Shown: in pieces, positions 4,633-33,000 of the stretch
Layout: each line of letters opens with the position of its first letter
Numbering within the stretch: position 1 is the stretch's first letter
DNA from: a virus
Length of the DNA: 63,496 nt
Virus record (IMG/VR): IMGVR_UViG_3300012920_000036
Coordinates: 1-63,496 of that record
Strand: one strand, 5' to 3'
Program-made: the position numbers and the translations under genes
The notes under the pieces: generated by a model
What the model saw: only the letters and a program-made list of their open reading frames with translations
Told to the model about the DNA's origin: nothing
Databases searched by the model: none

Positions 4633-5685
4633 TTACCAATCAACTCCGCAAGCGTTAACTCCGCAAGCGTTCTTCGGCCCACGCGATCCTGCTGTGTCCT
4701 CGACTTCCTTGGAATTTTTTATCTCCTCCTTAAAATAATTAATGAAATTTTCTTCATTATGTTTCTTCATCTGCTTAACAAATTGATTCCATGAATTCTT
4801 TTGGGCAAACGGGAGATTTTCGATTATTTCCGCAAACGATAGTTCATCCTCAAGTTTTTGATATTCAGCTATTGGGACAGTTTTAGGATTACTAACTCGC
4901 GCCGCCATTTCAACTGTTATCGTTTTGTCCCAGCCATCAAGGGTTTGAATCCATTCCAACACGTTAAACGATTGTAGGCCAATTGCCATGTTAACCGCCA
5001 ATTTGTAATAAATCATTCGGGTAAAATCATCATTCCCTAGTATCTCTTCCATTCGTACTGGGTTGTCGTAAGCTATCGAACGGGCTAACGCCATAAACTG
5101 GTTTTTTGTGTCACGCTGGGTTCGCCAACGGTTCGCCAATTTAATTTGGTGGTCAATGACTTTATCTTTCGCCTCCAGTTGAGCATCTTTTTCGTCGAGT
5201 TGCTCGTTAAGAGACATTATGTGGTCGGTCAATCCCTCGGCACGTTCGCCCATGTGTTTATAGTATTGGTAGTGAATCTGTTTTTCCGTTTCAGCAGCTT
5301 CATGTAACGATAGAATTGTCCTATTGTGAGCTTCGATATGTTCATCGCGTCGAGCAATTCCTTTTCGCAGCCCATTAATTTTGCTGTTTAGCTCGGCGTT
5401 TTTTACAGCCGTTTCCTTTGCCTCATTCACCGCCATTTGAACGCGATATTCCTCGTAACAGGCAAATAATATAGCAATGGATACAACCACAGCTATGGTC
5501 TTCCAGCCCCCACGGCTAACATGGCGCATAATGCTATTGCACCTGGTATCCGCTGTAGCTTCAGCTAATTCGGCTCGATGGTCAGCGTTTTCGTTTGCTA
5601 CTTCCGCACGAACATCTGCTGCATCTTCCGCAACTGATTGATTATCTATTATTTTTTTTTGATTATTTGTTATTTTGTCCAACAT
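4633..5685 (-). CDS. Membrane-anchored coiled-coil protein of the lysogeny block, 350 aa
   Basis: Residues 1-55 are charged and helical (repeated A/E/D/R heptads), residues about 62-77 form one membrane segment (TIAVVVSIAILFACYE), and about 85-200 is a long coiled coil rich in E, K, Q. The last part is globular and ends with a duplicated ACGVNACGVDW. No known family. Its place between integrase and regulator, on the lysogenic strand, suggests expression from the prophage; superinfection exclusion would fit but is only inference. Confidence 0.65.
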   Translation of the reverse strand: MLDKITNNQKKIIDNQSVAEDAADVRAEVANENADHRAELAEATADTRCNSIMRHVSRGGWKTIAVVVSIAILFACYEEYRVQMAVNEAKETAVKNAELNSKINGLRKGIARRDEHIEAHNRTILSLHEAAETEKQIHYQYYKHMGERAEGLTDHIMSLNEQLDEKDAQLEAKDKVIDHQIKLANRWRTQRDTKNQFMALARSIAYDNPVRMEEILGNDDFTRMIYYKLAVNMAIGLQSFNVLEWIQTLDGWDKTITVEMAARVSNPKTVPIAEYQKLEDELSFAEIIENLPFAQKNSWNQFVKQMKKHNEENFINYFKEEIKNSKEVEDTAGSRGPKNACGVNACGVDW

Positions 5686-5698
5686 GTTCTTAATTTGT

Positions 5699-6010
5699 TT
5701 ATTTGGTTATTGCCTTTCGTTTTGCTTTTACAGCAGCAAGCTCACGATTGAGCCGCTTTAGGTTTTCGCTCATTTTCTTTTGGGTGATTTCGATGGTTGA
5801 AGCTATAGACGTTAGTGCGTCGGCAGTTGCGATTTGAGCCGCTTCGCTAACATCTAAGGCATCGGCTTGCACCCCCTCCTTTAATTGACTTCGGATAGCA
5901 TACTCTATCCATTGGTTAATCGACATTTCTTCAGAAGCAGCAGCTTGCTCAATCATTGAGTACAGAGTGTCTGTGCATCTAAAGGCTCGATTTGTTTTTT
6001 TAGGTTTCAA
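5699..6010 (-). CDS. Ribbon-helix-helix regulator, 103 aa
   Basis: The N-terminal 50 residues fit an Arc/CopG-type ribbon-helix-helix: strand NRAFRCTDTL, helix MIEQAAASEE, then SINQWIEYAIRSQL. A helical, Lys-rich tail follows. First gene of the leftward operon, divergent from the rightward regulators, with a palindrome at 6045-6059 in the shared promoter region. It is the best candidate for the lysogeny repressor or for an autoregulator of the integrase operon. Confidence 0.7.
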   Translation of the reverse strand: MKPKKTNRAFRCTDTLYSMIEQAAASEEMSINQWIEYAIRSQLKEGVQADALDVSEAAQIATADALTSIASTIEITQKKMSENLKRLNRELAAVKAKRKAITK

Positions 6011-6044
6011 AATAATGCTTATTGATCTCGGTTCTTGAAAAAAT

Positions 6045-6059
6045 TTTCTTTAAAAGAAA
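6045..6059. promoter_or_regulatory. 15-bp palindrome, operator candidate
   Basis: TTTCTTTAAAAGAAA is a perfect palindrome (arms TTTCTT/AAGAAA, 3-base centre) in the 183-base divergent gap between the leftward ribbon-helix-helix gene and the rightward operon. The gap is strongly A+T rich and includes a T/A run near 6106-6120. Binding by the adjacent ribbon-helix-helix protein is inferred. Confidence 0.4.
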
Positions 6060-6193
6060 TATGCGAACCGGCTTCAAAATAGTTCAGTTTCATGCATTGT
6101 CAAATTTTTTTTTAAAAAAATGAAACCCAAACAAAAAAAGTTATTGCGATATCATTAAAAAAAGTTTTCACTTTCCGAGTGCCAACAAAGCGG

Positions 6194-6349
6194 ATGAAAG
6201 AAAAAAAAGAGAAAACCACGGGCTTTGCGTATGACAAGGAAACAGGGAAGTTAATAAACGCTGGGGCAAAGTTGCACTTAAACGGTAAGGGAAAGCCCAG
6301 CATTAGCAACTTCCTTCGCGCAGCCGTTCACCAGTATTTTGAGAAATAA
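6194..6349 (+). CDS. Small RHH-like protein, at least 51 aa, start uncertain
   Basis: From the ATG at 6194 the product ends SISNFLRAAVHQYFEK, which looks like the second helix of a ribbon-helix-helix fold. In-frame sequence upstream (codons for KKVFTFRVPTKRM) would supply the missing beta strand, but no ATG is available there; a GTG at 6179 or a rare ATT codon would be needed. It ends on TAATG with the next gene. First gene of the rightward operon. Confidence 0.55.
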   Translation: MKEKKEKTTGFAYDKETGKLINAGAKLHLNGKGKPSISNFLRAAVHQYFEK

Positions 6350-15905: not shown

Positions 15906-16166
15906 GTGGCCCACATTAATGTCCATATTTTCGGACTAGAAGCAGAATGTTTGGCTTCCGAATGGGAAGACAGCTATTGCACCAACAGGGACTATATTGA
16001 TGTTGTGGCCACAGCTACTTTTTACATCGATGAAGATGAACCCAGAGATATTCACGCCGATCTAGCCGCCAATGCCAACAGCAAATTAGCTGAACCTCTG
16101 GTTTATAAGTGGGTTGATGACTGTCGTGACCAATATATCGAGATGATGAACCGACCAAGACGCTAA
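15906..16166 (+). CDS. Unknown acidic protein, 86 aa
   Basis: Beta-rich start (HINVHIFGLEAECLASEWEDSYC) and YIDVVATATFYIDEDEPRDIHADL. No domain recognised. GTG start at 15906. Its end overlaps by 4 bases the end of a convergent minus-strand gene, marking the end of this transcription unit. Confidence 0.6.
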   Translation: MAHINVHIFGLEAECLASEWEDSYCTNRDYIDVVATATFYIDEDEPRDIHADLAANANSKLAEPLVYKWVDDCRDQYIEMMNRPRR

Positions 16167-16537
16167 TCTCCCCACCCAACGTCCTCATCACTCAAGCCAT
16201 TCTCGTCTGCCCAGCATTTTCCACCGAAAATTACCTTGTAAGGCATGTAACACCCACACCCAGCACCATGTCCCGTGTACGGACGACACCGCTTCATAGC
16301 TTTATCGTACACAATACACCCTCCACACCCCCGCATCTTACGGAAAAACTCTCTACGGCTAATCCTACGGCCTGTAATGAGCGTTTTTAGGATGTCCTTC
16401 GCCAGATACATGCGCTGTTTCCACGTCAACTGACCAAACTCCACGCGCATAACATCAGTCCATCCCTCAAATCTACGGAATATAAACCGGACAAATCCCA
16501 TATGGGGGTATTTTAGCCACCCCTGTATATGAGACAC
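16163..16537 (-). CDS. Cys-rich zinc-binding phage protein, minus strand, 124 aa
   Basis: RKMRGCGGCIVYDKAMKRC then GAGCGCYMPYKV and KCWADENGL give seven Cys in the C-terminal half, matching a family with 'C..C...RC....GCGCY.P.K......CW' seen in many phages. The N-terminal half is basic and helical. It is the only minus-strand gene outside the lysogeny block; its promoter must lie in 16538-16771. Confidence 0.65.
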   Translation of the reverse strand: MSHIQGWLKYPHMGFVRFIFRRFEGWTDVMRVEFGQLTWKQRMYLAKDILKTLITGRRISRREFFRKMRGCGGCIVYDKAMKRCRPYTGHGAGCGCYMPYKVIFGGKCWADENGLSDEDVGWGD

Positions 16538-16771
16538 GGGGTTTTTTTAGGGGGAGGGGGTTGGAAATCGAAAAATGACCGAAAGTTGAGAAGAGAGGTA
16601 TATATATATTCCAGGCGCTAAAGCAAAACCCCCCTCGCCCCCCTGCCTGGTCTTGGTCCTGCCTGTCACCTTAAACAATGAAAGGTGACAATCGCCTTTT
16701 GACACATAGTAACGGGGCGGCATCGAACCAAAAAAACCGCCTCAATATCGAAATAAATAGATAAAAATAAC
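16538..16771. other. Divergent intergenic region, 234 bases
   Basis: Separates the minus-strand Cys-rich gene from the rightward gene at 16772. It holds a G-rich stretch (16540-16560), an alternating TA run (16599-16609), a C-rich stretch (16629-16643) and the palindromic copy of the recurrent motif. A 28-codon frame begins at 16678 (MKGDNRLLTH) and ends at 16764. Promoters for both directions are expected here. Confidence 0.5.
16664..16690 (+). promoter_or_regulatory. Recurrent motif copy 2, palindromic form
   Basis: TGTCACCTT (16664-16672) and AAGGTGACA (16682-16690) are perfect inverted 9-base arms around AAACAATGA, so a possible ATG at 16678 sits in the loop. This is the most symmetrical of seven motif copies and suggests a dimeric DNA-binding protein or a translational hairpin. 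Confidence 0.6.
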
Positions 16772-17347
16772 ATGGCTAATACTAATAAAACCAATAACGA
16801 AACAACAGCCCCGCAACTTAACGGCGCGGCAAACGAAAACACAATCGCTGTCGATAATAATTCCGGCAGGAGCAACCGCAACGGAACAACCGCAAAACCA
16901 AAGGCAAAAAACGAAGCCAAGGCCAAAGCACGGGCAACCCGTCGCAAAGCCAAAAAACTGACAAAAAACGGCGGGGAATTAATTCCGATTAAATTCGGTA
17001 ATAAAAAGACAAACTTTTATTTCATCGAAGGAATCAACTTGGCGGATTTTATAACCAAAAATAAAAACGTAAAGGAACTGGCGTTGTTATCTAAAGACCA
17101 CCAAAAAGACGTATTGAACCGAGTACACAATCAATTTGCGTTAACCACCGGCCGTTTTGAATCAATAAAGGTGGGCAAGGCAACCGGCAAATGGAGCCGC
17201 GAAGACGGGCAATATCGTGCTTTCGTTTCGATGCAAGGCAAGTTGCGTCGCGAAGCTTTCGACGACGAAAAACTAGCCGCCTTGGCAAAAGACAAGGCGA
17301 AAATGCTGGCAGCATATGCGGAAAGGGAAGCTTCCCTCAAAAAGTAA
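16772..17347 (+). CDS. Basic Ala/Lys-rich protein, 191 aa
   Basis: Residues 1-45 are Asn/Thr-rich and disordered, 42-70 are a Lys/Ala/Arg run (KAKNEAKAKARATRRKAKKL), and the rest is an alpha/beta domain (PIKFGNKKTNFYFIEGINL). DNA binding is plausible from the charge. Base use around it (many AACCGG and GCCAAGG words) differs from its neighbours, as in the RNA-like region downstream. Family unknown. Confidence 0.6.
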   Translation: MANTNKTNNETTAPQLNGAANENTIAVDNNSGRSNRNGTTAKPKAKNEAKAKARATRRKAKKLTKNGGELIPIKFGNKKTNFYFIEGINLADFITKNKNVKELALLSKDHQKDVLNRVHNQFALTTGRFESIKVGKATGKWSREDGQYRAFVSMQGKLRREAFDDEKLAALAKDKAKMLAAYAEREASLKK

Positions 17348-17353
17348 AATAGT

Positions 17354-17381
17354 TTTGTTCTCCGGTTCGCCGGAGAGCAAA
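17354..17381 (+). other. UUCG-capped 12-bp hairpin
   Basis: TTTGTTCTCCGG pairs with CCGGAGAGCAAA (one G-U) around a TTCG tetraloop, immediately after the stop of the preceding gene. UUCG tetraloops are characteristic of stable natural RNA hairpins. Confidence 0.65.
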
Positions 17382-17416
17382 CCAAAGCCAAGGCTATTCG
17401 CTTTGGTTTTGTTTTG
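17379..17416 (+). terminator. Probable intrinsic terminator
   Basis: AAACCAAAGC (17379-17388) pairs perfectly with GCTTTGGTTT (17400-17409) and is followed by the T-rich TGTTTTG. It partly shares bases with the hairpin before it, so the two may be alternative structures. Confidence 0.55.
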
Positions 17417-17932
17417 TTCTCTGTTCTCTGAAAAATAAAGCGAAAAGCATTGAAAACTGGCACGGTTGCACAAACCGCCCAAAGTAAATGGAAAAACTTT
17501 TCCCTTTTATTGTGTACATTAATTCGCCCGTGATTATTTAAGGGCGTTGACTAATGCCGACCCGCCAAGGGTTGGGGCGGTTCAACGTCGCGGAAAAATA
17601 ATTGCGTTGCGATTGTCGCAAAAAATTTGGTTGCGTTTAATAGAAAACCACCGGCAAACCGTATCGCGGGAATCAATCCTAGTCGCTTGGCAAGCGTAGG
17701 TACAAAGGGCGAAATGCCTTGTCGAACCGCAACCAAAAAAACTGACAATCAACAAACCGGCAAGGGGCGTCCGCAATTTGAAGCAATAAAAACAAAAGTT
17801 TTGCTTGGCTGAAAAGCCTATCAATAAAGCTTTCGATTTTGGTGCATGGCCAGAAAAGGCCAAGGCGAATCTATTCGCCAAGCGTACCATTTGCCCAAAG
17901 CGTTTTACAAAAAATAAAGTAAAAACGTGGCG

Positions 17933-18005
17933 GGGGAATTGTGTCTTGAATCAATTCAATTGATTTTTCAAGTGTTCCCCGTCAAAACCGTTTCCCTTTT
18001 TTTTT
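17933..18005 (+). terminator. Long hairpin followed by T9, possible terminator or RNA boundary
   Basis: GGGGAA (17933-17938) pairs with TTCCCC (17975-17980), and inside it CTTGAA (17945-17950) with TTCAAG (17967-17972). After 16 bases comes an uninterrupted run of nine T. The distance is long for a standard terminator, so this may be an internal domain instead. Confidence 0.4.
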
Positions 18006-18463
18006 GATTAGACAAAACGTCAGGGGTGGATTGTGTCCGCTTCACTCTTTTAGGGTGTTTGGTTCAAAACCTATCGCGATTAATACCGCCGATAAATAGG
18101 GTTGGCCATGCGGTTCGGGTAAAGTGAACCGATAAGCTGACGTATTAAGGGAATTGTTCCGCATAAATCGTGCAGCATCTAGGTGTAGGATGGGAGAAGT
18201 GTTCCCTGCCGTCGCCTGGAAAATCTATTAGCCTGAGTAAATGGCAAACGCACAAGGTTTGCGTTGTGTTACTGATTGGATGCGACCGCATCGCTCATGG
18301 CTAGGATTCGCAATTGGATGGATCACGGTGGTACGAGACGTGACAAAACGCCAGAGGGGTTTCAATTAGAAACGAGTGCGTCCATTGTTAAATAATACAC
18401 TATACAGCAGACGTGACAGGTCTTGACTGGGTAGATTAATTAAATGTTAGTGGCCAATAGGAA

Positions 18464-18500
18464 GGGCGGCACTAGGCAACTGGTGTCGCCCTTTCCCTTT
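18464..18500 (+). terminator. GNRA-capped 12-bp hairpin, end of the large RNA
   Basis: GGGCGGCACTAG (18464-18475) pairs with CTGGTGTCGCCC (18480-18491) through a GCAA tetraloop, with two G-U pairs. TTTCCCTTT follows. A GNRA cap and G-U pairs indicate selection at RNA level; termination is likely but the T-tract is weak. Confidence 0.6.
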
Positions 18501-18570
18501 GGTGCATTGCCTTCGTTGCACTCTTGGGGTGTGACGACGGCAGCGCACCGCTGCTAATAGGAGTAATGTA

Positions 18571-18864
18571 ATGAGTAAAGAAGTAATGAATGAGTACGCT
18601 CGCCCTATTTGTGAGCGTTTAGAGTGCAACGTAGTCCCTGTCGTGGACTATGAATACACCAAAGATGGTGTCGTGAAGAAGGAAAGCCGTGAGTTGTATG
18701 CTAACGGCTCGTACTTGGGTCAGGTTCCGAAGAGGGCTGGTCAAAAGGATGTTGTGAACCATTGCATGGCAATGGGGATGTGTGCGGAAGCGGATGAAGT
18801 TGTTGTTTCATTCGATAAGACACCGCGCATCGAGAACGAATACCTCAATCAATTAGGCTTATGA
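18571..18864 (+). CDS. Unknown protein, first of the accessory array, 97 aa
   Basis: Has one of the few clear Shine-Dalgarno sites in the window (AGGAG, seven bases before ATG). The protein is alpha/beta with a Lys/Glu-rich middle and no recognised domain. It ends in an ATGA overlap with a tiny membrane protein. Good ribosome binding directly behind the large RNA suggests strong or separately controlled expression. Confidence 0.65.
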   Translation: MSKEVMNEYARPICERLECNVVPVVDYEYTKDGVVKKESRELYANGSYLGQVPKRAGQKDVVNHCMAMGMCAEADEVVVSFDKTPRIENEYLNQLGL

Positions 18865-28514: not shown

Positions 28515-29561
28515 ATGGTAAACAAAACGGGTGTGGATTGTCCCACCACGACTCACATCTCTTTATGCACCGGCTGTGCAGGGCTTGACCTCGGACTACG
28601 AGCAGTTATCCCATCTCTTCGCACAGTACTTTATGTGGAGATCGAAGCCTTCAATTGCTCCAACTTGGCGCAGAAGATGCAACACAACTCCTTGGATGAA
28701 GCACCTATTTGGACTGATCTTACATCCGTCCCTGTGGAAAACTTTCGAGACAAGGTATTCGCAATCTCTGGAGGCTATCCATGTCAGCCCTTCTCATTTT
28801 GTGGAAGCAGACAAGGCGAAGAAGACGAAGGAGGCAGACACCTCTGGCCGTTTTGTCGCAGAACAATTCGAGCTATTCGACCTGTCTTCTGTATGTGGGA
28901 GAATGTCGAAGGACACATCACGCTTGGACTGTCAACAGTCATTAGCGATATGGAACACGATGGTTACCGCGCAACGTGGGGATTATTCTCAGCGCAAGTC
29001 GATGCAGATGCTCCGCACCAGAGAAAGAGAGTGTTCATCCTTGGCTTGCGGGAAGATGTCGATGCCGAAATCTTCAAGGACATCTGTCCAGAACTGGCCG
29101 ACGCCGACAACTCAAGACTGGAGAGATGGCTCGTCGAGGCGGAACGAGGACAACCTAGCGAGGGGTGGCAACCATGCAGTCAGCCTACAGCACAAGGTGC
29201 AGGCGGAGAACTGGCCGACACCAACGGTCAGCGACTACAAGGGCAGCGGCCCGATGACTATGAGGGACGACGGGGTAACAAGGATGTGCCGTCTGGACTA
29301 CGCAGTCGAACAGTCTGGCCAGCCAGACCAGGTGAGCCGCAAGAATCCTGGGAACCACCAAGAACAATTGAAGTCGGTGAGACTGAATCCGAGATGGGTG
29401 GAGACTTTGATGGGCTTGCCGGTGGGCTGGGTGATGCCGAGTTGTACGTCTCCTGTGACAATCGAGTAGACGAGTTACGAACATTGGGCAACTCAGTTGT
29501 CCCGCAGTCTGCTAGTGCTGCGTTTCTTCATCTAGCAAAAAGACTAATCCAGAATAAATAA
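28515..29561 (+). CDS. C5 cytosine DNA methyltransferase, 348 aa
   Basis: Motif I CTGCAGLDLGLR (about 18-29), the catalytic Cys in GGYPCQPFSFCG (near 89), ENVEGH (near 129), HQRKRVFILG (motif VIII) and LGNSVVPQ (motif X, near 323) are all present. The recognition region (about 185-300) reads ELADADNSRLERW and ELADTNGQRLQGQ, and WPARPGEPQESWEPPR, known from phage enzymes. Methylation probably protects the phage from restriction. The same region is also open in the next frame; see the separate entry. Confidence 0.9.
   Translation: MVNKTGVDCPTTTHISLCTGCAGLDLGLRAVIPSLRTVLYVEIEAFNCSNLAQKMQHNSLDEAPIWTDLTSVPVENFRDKVFAISGGYPCQPFSFCGSRQGEEDEGGRHLWPFCRRTIRAIRPVFCMWENVEGHITLGLSTVISDMEHDGYRATWGLFSAQVDADAPHQRKRVFILGLREDVDAEIFKDICPELADADNSRLERWLVEAERGQPSEGWQPCSQPTAQGAGGELADTNGQRLQGQRPDDYEGRRGNKDVPSGLRSRTVWPARPGEPQESWEPPRTIEVGETESEMGGDFDGLAGGLGDAELYVSCDNRVDELRTLGNSVVPQSASAAFLHLAKRLIQNK
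29050..29469 (+). other. Second reading frame with methyltransferase-like sequence
   Basis: In the +1 frame relative to the methyltransferase, open from 28531 to 29469, the stretch reads NWPTPTTQDWRDGSSRRN, NWPTPTVSDYKGSG and LNPRWVETLMGLPVGWV. These are typical of the recognition region and the 'LNPxFVEWLMGFPxGW' end of other C5 methyltransferases. The upstream half of this frame does not look like a protein. It is probably a fossil or an alternative frame, not a separate gene. Confidence 0.55.
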
Positions 29562-31662: not shown

Positions 31663-31933
31663 TGATTCATTAAAAGAAAAGGAAGAACACACAGAGAATT
31701 TACTTAAATGTAATGCTGACATTAAAAGATTACAGGGCGAGATAAGAAGGCTGGGTGTGCTGTGCCAAGGTATCAACAAAAGAGTGGGAGGATACCAAGC
31801 GAAGGTACAAAAGCTGAAGCTTTCCATTAAGGATGAGGAGAAAAGATTGGAACAAAAGTTGGAAGATAAATGGGTAGAGAAAAAGAGACAGGAATTTAGA
31901 AGGAACTGTTACGTCAAAAACTTAAACATATGA
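31565..31933 (+). CDS. Coiled-coil protein, 122 aa
   Basis: Nearly all of it is a Lys/Glu-rich coiled coil (KEKEEHTENLLKCNADIKRLQ). It overlaps the HTH gene by 98 bases in another frame, an unusually long overlap, and the recombinase gene by 4. Part of the overlapped N-terminus may not be translated. Confidence 0.55.
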   Translation: MNLPKEDLDKAVLNSRKIRNANKSIQGWQKRIDDSLKEKEEHTENLLKCNADIKRLQGEIRRLGVLCQGINKRVGGYQAKVQKLKLSIKDEEKRLEQKLEDKWVEKKRQEFRRNCYVKNLNI

Positions 31934-33000
31934 AATTAAAGAAGAAGAAAGGAGTTTACTATGTCTCCTTTAAAACTGCTGAAGGAACAAAAGAAGTCAG
32001 CACTAGATGCACCAACAAGGATGCAGCGTTAAGAGTCTGCGAGCAGGCAGACATAGAGAAGATGGAAGCACTACTCAAGGCGAACTCCTTGAGGGAGGAT
32101 GTGTTTCAGAAGATGAAGGGTGGCGACAAGATAACCAATGAGCAGGCAATCGAGCAGTACACAGAGTGGTCTGCATCAATTGGTAAGTCTGAAAGAACTG
32201 TGCAGGAAACCGTCATCCACATTGAGAAGTTTCTCAAAGCCAAGAAGCTGATGAAGCAAAGGCCAAGCGCCATCAACGAGAAGCTGTTGTCCAGCCATAT
32301 CAACAGCAAGGCCAGCGACAATAAGGCCAGCACCAGACGTGTGATGTTGTCTGCCGTTGCAAATTACATTGAGTACTGCAATGCCAAGGGTTGGGTGGCT
32401 GGCAACCCAGCCAAGCTGGTTAAGATTAACAAGAAGAACCTGTCCCATTATCAGAAGGAAACAGAAGAGAAGAAGGTGTTTACTGATGATGAGGTTAAAT
32501 GGATTGAGGCAATGACCGATGGGTTCTGGAACGTGGCAGTACACCTATCTTACGAGACTGGCCTGCGTATCGGTGACATCTGCCGACTGGAGTGTGCATC
32601 CCACAACGTAGAGGAATCAACGCTGGCTGTGTGGACAGAGAAGAGGGACAAGCGTGTTGAACTACCGTTGAGTAAGAAGCTGAACCTCAAGCTGCACAAC
32701 TGGAAGGGCGACAAGAACAACACAAGGACGAAAGAGTTGTTCTTCCCTACTGAAAAGGAGAGGCACGAAGACCCAAAGAAACGTAGCTACCACTCAGTAA
32801 CATTCAGAAGAATTATGGAGGCTCTGGGTATCGAGGGTAAATCATTCCATAGTTTACGAGCTACCTATGCGACCAATGCCAGCATCAATGGCAGACCTTG
32901 GTGGGAGATTGCCAAGGACATGGGGCATACAGATGTGGCTACGACTCAGGTCTACATCAAGGACAAGAACAGGTACAAGCCTGTTGCTAAAGTGGTGTGA
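31930..33000 (+). CDS. Second tyrosine recombinase, 356 aa
   Basis: All catalytic residues are present: Arg213 (TGLRIGD), Lys238, His307 and Arg310 (HSLRATYAT), His333 (GHTDVATTQ) and Tyr342. An N-terminal arm-like domain (1-65) and a SAM-like core-binding domain (70-160) precede it. It is unlike the first integrase and is not next to any tRNA fragment that I can see. It could resolve genome multimers, flip a segment or be a relic of another integration module. It couples to the terminase region by a GTGA overlap. Confidence 0.88.
   Translation: MKLKKKKGVYYVSFKTAEGTKEVSTRCTNKDAALRVCEQADIEKMEALLKANSLREDVFQKMKGGDKITNEQAIEQYTEWSASIGKSERTVQETVIHIEKFLKAKKLMKQRPSAINEKLLSSHINSKASDNKASTRRVMLSAVANYIEYCNAKGWVAGNPAKLVKINKKNLSHYQKETEEKKVFTDDEVKWIEAMTDGFWNVAVHLSYETGLRIGDICRLECASHNVEESTLAVWTEKRDKRVELPLSKKLNLKLHNWKGDKNNTRTKELFFPTEKERHEDPKKRSYHSVTFRRIMEALGIEGKSFHSLRATYATNASINGRPWWEIAKDMGHTDVATTQVYIKDKNRYKPVAKVV

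Follow-up and report, generated by a model that had tools for sequence, protein, structure and literature searches.

A gene-free 1.2-kb block in a metagenomic phage is likely a structured noncoding RNA

We found that a gene-free block at 17348-18570 of a metagenomic phage, an IMG/VR virus record whose full 63,496 nt were analysed (the window), is likely a structured noncoding RNA. The block is noncoding, is conserved, is structured beyond chance on the + strand and shows some compensatory change. Since it is kept in a close relative, either identically or by matched changes, it is probably a large folded RNA. The first-pass annotation of this DNA had proposed a large structured RNA here. The block evolves as noncoding sequence, folds with a strand bias, has compensatory pairs in its 5' part and is extremely conserved in its 3' part, all of which agrees with that proposal. 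Our leading reading, held tentatively and at a little under an even chance, is that 17416-18562 is a large structured noncoding RNA of the + strand that would be processed from an operon and would act in trans. By analogy, phages that share a promoter-like element with the window may lend it support, as they hold gene-poor blocks of 0.6-1.2 kb in the same neighbourhood; against it count the single homologue (two sequences in all), the lack of a known ribozyme in the block, and the lack of excess folding in the blocks of two relatives (G018 and G025).

The phage carries a DnaB helicase gene and a terminase that has ~40 relatives among other metagenomic contigs. No cultured phage is closely related to it: of 50,697 phage records, the best match to its terminase is ~25% identical across most of the protein's length. 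Phage integrase and C5 cytosine methylase genes lie upstream of the terminase gene, at 31930-33000 and 28515-29561. The sole true homologue of the block that we found is in IMG/VR contig 3300030333_005826 (G001; loci L002-L004, L083 and L099), which has the same gene order as the window and the same block.

Among stretches of the window that have no + strand ORF of at least 70 aa, 17348-18570 is the longest if 4739-6348, occupied by minus-strand genes, is set aside. The best ORF of 17348-18570, 102 aa on the minus strand, does not exceed what chance gives, with 16.6% of shuffles reaching 102 aa; compared with G001, stops and indels have been gained in this ORF, and its changes are spread evenly over the three codon positions. 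In the 3' half, every frame has 5-17 stops, and a 1-nt indel is found at 18220 relative to G001. The first-pass annotation had named a conserved open frame as a finding that would speak against an RNA, and we found no frame across the block that survives comparison with G001. Hence, with the best ORF at chance level and no frame kept, its statement that these 1.2 kb contain no credible gene holds. The block is flanked upstream by a 191-aa gene (16772-17347, + strand), which has a lysine-rich N-terminal half and is fast evolving, and downstream by a 97-aa gene (18571-18864, + strand), for which no family was found. The 191-aa protein belongs to no Pfam or PHROGs family, its structure model is unreliable and unusable (pLDDT 43.5), and it has no profile similarity to the first gene after the promoter-like element in the relatives G018 and G025.

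The MFE of 17441-18570 is -392.4 kcal/mol, compared with -335.0 (sd 10.0) kcal/mol in dinucleotide shuffles (z -5.71), and none of 13 control segments of equal length, taken from coding parts of the genome, goes beyond it (z -0.01 to -4.82). Hence, given how far down the controls reach, the folding excess of the block is real yet moderate, not huge. In fixed 150-nt windows, the mean z of the block is -1.19 vs a background of -0.65 (sd 1.24). The excess is concentrated on the + strand, where the 3' half has a z of -4.9 vs -2.7 on the minus strand.

All of the stems named earlier are present, including the UUCG cap, the GCAA cap and a long-range 10-bp pair, and all lie on the + strand. At the upstream end (17353-17411), a UUCG-capped hairpin (CCGG-UUCG-CCGG, ~17363-17374) and a terminator-like hairpin with a T-rich tail (17383-17411) hold three compensatory pairs; these first hairpins look like the terminator of the upstream gene rather than the body of the RNA. 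The best Rfam match, Phe_leader at 17339-17415 (27.9 bits vs a cut-off of 55), is this terminator-like hairpin and was rejected. Beyond it lies the 5' variable domain of the candidate (17441-18010; 80-93% identity to G001; z -3.4), with a hairpin at 17557-17575 that holds two adjacent compensatory pairs (CG to TA, twice), a long-range domain at 17611-17750, a hairpin at 17864-17879 with one compensatory pair (GC to AT), and a long hairpin with a 10-bp base predicted by folding at 17928-17984. The long-range domain contains the helix 17626-17635/17728-17737, a perfect 10-bp pair in the window (P = 0.94), of which nine of the ten pairs are kept in G001. The 3' conserved domain (18011-18480) is noncoding and identical to G001 at 467 of 469 positions. 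It is followed by two long hairpins, the first with 14 bp and the GCAA cap (18462-18493, cap 18476-18479; P 0.97) and the second with 21 bp (18501-18549), which adjoins, just upstream, the ribosome-binding site of the next gene and is a candidate processing site. Two near-repeats, GACAAAACGTCAGGGG (18011-18026) and GACAAAACGCCAGAGGGG (18342-18359), had been taken as possible marks of duplicated domains; both copies are present and kept in G001, but self-comparison found nothing beyond an 18-nt motif, so that the repeats stand but duplicated domains are not supported.

Identity to G001 varies along the block, going from 76% at 17348-17440 through 80% at 17441-17640, 93% at 17641-17940 and 81% at 17941-18010 to 99.6% at 18011-18480, with 94% at 18481-18570. 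In the 5' half, double changes keep pairing at 17359/17376, 17365/17370, 17386/17408, 17562/17570, 17563/17569 and 17867/17876. Over the whole block, pairing is kept in 6 of 8 double changes between these two sequences, compared with a mean of 1.05 when the same changes were dealt at random (P = 0.0002). The consensus of the domain 17605-17755 has 42 pairs, each of which can form in the window as well as in G001, five of them by way of a one-sided change. The 3' half has zero compensatory pairs because it has almost no variation relative to G001: with 3 differences, 18017-18490 is the least changed of 1308 windows of 470 nt in the 14.7 kb aligned, below any gene. Since the downstream genes are also close to G001 (4 to 6 differences in their closest 470-nt windows), part of the identity of the 3' half may be due to a recent exchange between lineages, in which the window and G001 would have recombined near 18010. 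An island of divergence at 16772-17640 (~13-22% differences vs G001, with flanking regions at only a few percent) spans the 191-aa gene and the beginning of the RNA's 5' half.

The locus is anchored across the clade by a Cys-rich 124-aa gene with a GCGCYMP motif (16163-16537, minus strand; no Pfam match), a relative of which is found in 17 contigs. Just beyond the start of this gene, at least 10 contigs have an element with GAAAGTTGAGA, which is invariant across 10 aligned sequences, followed by TAT and a C-rich stretch. In the window, this promoter-like element reads GAAAGTTGAGAAGAG...TATATATA (16581-16607, + strand) with the C-rich stretch at ~16629-16644, and it may act as a promoter. GAAAGTTGAGAAGAG...TATATA is conserved in ten contigs, but its spacing does not fit sigma-70. 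Past the C-rich stretch, a hairpin, GTCACCTT...AAGGTGAC (16665-16689, + strand), is all that the window has to correspond to the leader block found directly after the element in relatives; comparable hairpins were seen by eye in G031 and G029. The gene-poor blocks past the element measure ~1.1 kb in G018, ~0.8 kb in G025, ~1.1 kb in G028 and ~0.6 kb in G031, and G029 has two (~0.75 and ~0.6 kb) that flank its first gene on both sides. Unlike the relatives' blocks directly after the element, that of the window lies after the first gene. Folding is strong in one G029 block (RNA2, z -6.0) and absent as an excess in G018 (z -0.7) and G025 (z 0). Hence, the relatives' blocks are not uniform. Homology of the window block to those of G018, G025 and G029 was rejected as unsupported, there being no nhmmer or covariance-model match, and the window RNA is related to the relatives' blocks by position only. 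Five of the 17 contigs with the minus-strand gene end within ~0.5 kb of it (L101, L104, L106, L107 and L108), a pattern suggestive of either a locally hypervariable region or an obstacle to assembly. On another contig (3300030333_005045), locus L150 has a manA RNA match below cut-off at 1602-1858 on the minus strand (39 bits, E 1e-6), with a tRNA directly after it, within a 1.07-kb gene-poor gap.

In our leading reading, the RNA would be made within an operon whose transcription would start at the conserved element near 16581. The terminator-like hairpin at 17383-17411 would separate it from the upstream mRNA and the long hairpins at 18462-18493 and 18501-18549 from the downstream mRNA, and processing would release it from the operon transcript. 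Its body, 17441-18500, would then act in trans as a folded RNA composed of a fast-changing 5' domain and a nearly invariant 3' domain, possibly with the 191-aa protein as a partner.

The main rival, which we regard as rather unlikely, is that the block is a cis-acting structured 5' UTR for the 97-aa gene and those that follow it, through which the long + transcript would be controlled in its translation, stability or antitermination. The block does lie directly upstream of the 97-aa gene with its last hairpin abutting the ribosome-binding site, and in relatives such blocks come after the element and before the first gene. However, a leader of 1.1 kb would be very long, G029 and G028 each have several blocks that flank different genes, and no riboswitch or leader family of Rfam matches the block.

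We also compared the window's own fold with G001 and found that 28 of its 49 variable pairs, including many of the 5' stems, are broken there, some of them through alignment shifts. Hence, not every predicted helix is right. Together with the moderate overall folding excess and the contigs that end in this neighbourhood, a sign of local variability, these broken pairs would fit a relic or hypervariable spacer, made of the remains of exchanged genes with stems that come from terminators or composition and with no selection on RNA. This we consider clearly unlikely, as no stretch of the alignment is more conserved than the noncoding 3' half and double changes preserve pairing above chance.

A replication origin or recombination site, that is, an element acting as DNA rather than RNA, is very unlikely. 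It would draw on a local turn of GC skew at ~16.5-18 kb, with a similar place in G018 and G025, and on the adjoining divergent gene. However, the dip in skew falls on the one minus-strand gene of that area, and an origin called from GC skew was rejected as weak; moreover, the + strand RNA folds more strongly than the minus strand, and changes of the G-C to G-U type that are kept in stems fit an RNA.

Ribozymes occur in the same neighbourhood of relatives. Rfam gave two matches in G028, a type II hammerhead (45 bits), which passes its curated cut-off, and a twister-P1 (60 bits, E 4e-11), which falls just short of its own, and two more hammerhead cores with a loop I-tail pseudoknot were seen by eye in G028 just upstream of genes. 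A loop I-tail pseudoknot and a short stem II characterize the type II hammerhead (PMC3088659). A hammerhead-like core whose stem II is bulged lies just upstream of the first gene past the element in G018 (L061 11953-12003); Rfam did not score it. In G028 (contig 3300027653_000012), at least three type II hammerheads and one twister-P1, those above included, thus lie between successive small genes (candidates at L086 8783-8890, 9300-9378 and 9626-9693, and at L097 4259-4324). Hence, as the ribozymes and hammerhead-like cores of G028 and G018 adjoin genes, it is plausible by analogy that transcripts of this kind are processed in this lineage. The block itself could be a novel self-cleaving or self-splicing RNA, for which these neighbours would speak, but we judge this highly improbable: unlike G028 and G018, the window RNA has no detected ribozyme, the block having no hammerhead core and no match to a ribozyme or intron family of Rfam, and no split gene is seen around it.

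The first-pass annotation had also suggested GOLLD or ROOL, and this identity was not upheld. Scans of the block with Rfam 15 at gathering and permissive thresholds (E<=5, E<=2), the comparison that the annotation had proposed, matched no plausible family, GOLLD and ROOL included. At E<=10, neither the GOLLD model (RF02032; controls matched only below cut-off) nor the ROOL model (RF03087; its positive control gave no match either) matched in the window or eight relatives. Blastn against INPHARED phages gave no match, G001 was the only real match in pattern scans of viral contigs with GACAAAACGYCAGRGG and GCGTTTAATAGAAAAC, and scans of genome contigs gave no further member; covariance models R1 and R2, nhmmer and patterns found no third member. 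A hit of R1 in L158 (E 0.14) was rejected because it falls within a coding gene, and a 24-nt match of 17624-17647 in G025, G022, G017 and G026 never extends beyond 44 nt and was taken as chance.

ROOL is a large structured RNA of phages and prophages, and GOLLD, an RNA-only 14-mer cage, is often near tRNA genes. In GOLLD, a large noncoding RNA encoded by phages, the 3' part is conserved and the 5' part less so (PMC12286853). The window RNA is likewise large, from a phage, and variable in its 5' part (76-93%) with a conserved 3' part (99.6%), as seen in one pair of sequences, and as a candidate large structured phage RNA it also resembles ROOL. It differs from both in matching neither model at E<=10 (a test in which the ROOL control also failed) and from GOLLD in being known from two contigs alone with no tRNA nearby, ARAGORN having found none in the window; tRNAs do occur in the relatives G029, G031 and G025. 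Hence, the block resembles GOLLD in its plan alone and is not filed as a member; a very divergent GOLLD or ROOL RNA is the least probable explanation.

It is possible that the block represents a new class of large RNA, although two sequences cannot establish a class. The fuller version, which we find conceivable though doubtful, is that it would found a new class of large phage RNAs that act in trans; the operons of this lineage would carry RNA blocks of 0.6-1.2 kb at a fixed place and free them by cleavage, with ribozymes in some members and with double-stranded stems in the window. Elaborately structured RNAs longer than 500 nt are, to our knowledge, known from bacteria and phages in only a handful of cases, and what GOLLD and ROOL do is, as far as we know, still an open question. 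If our reading is true, a further unrelated large RNA would mean that phages invent large RNAs repeatedly, and a lineage with differing gene-poor blocks and ribozymes at one place would provide a natural comparison set for their function.
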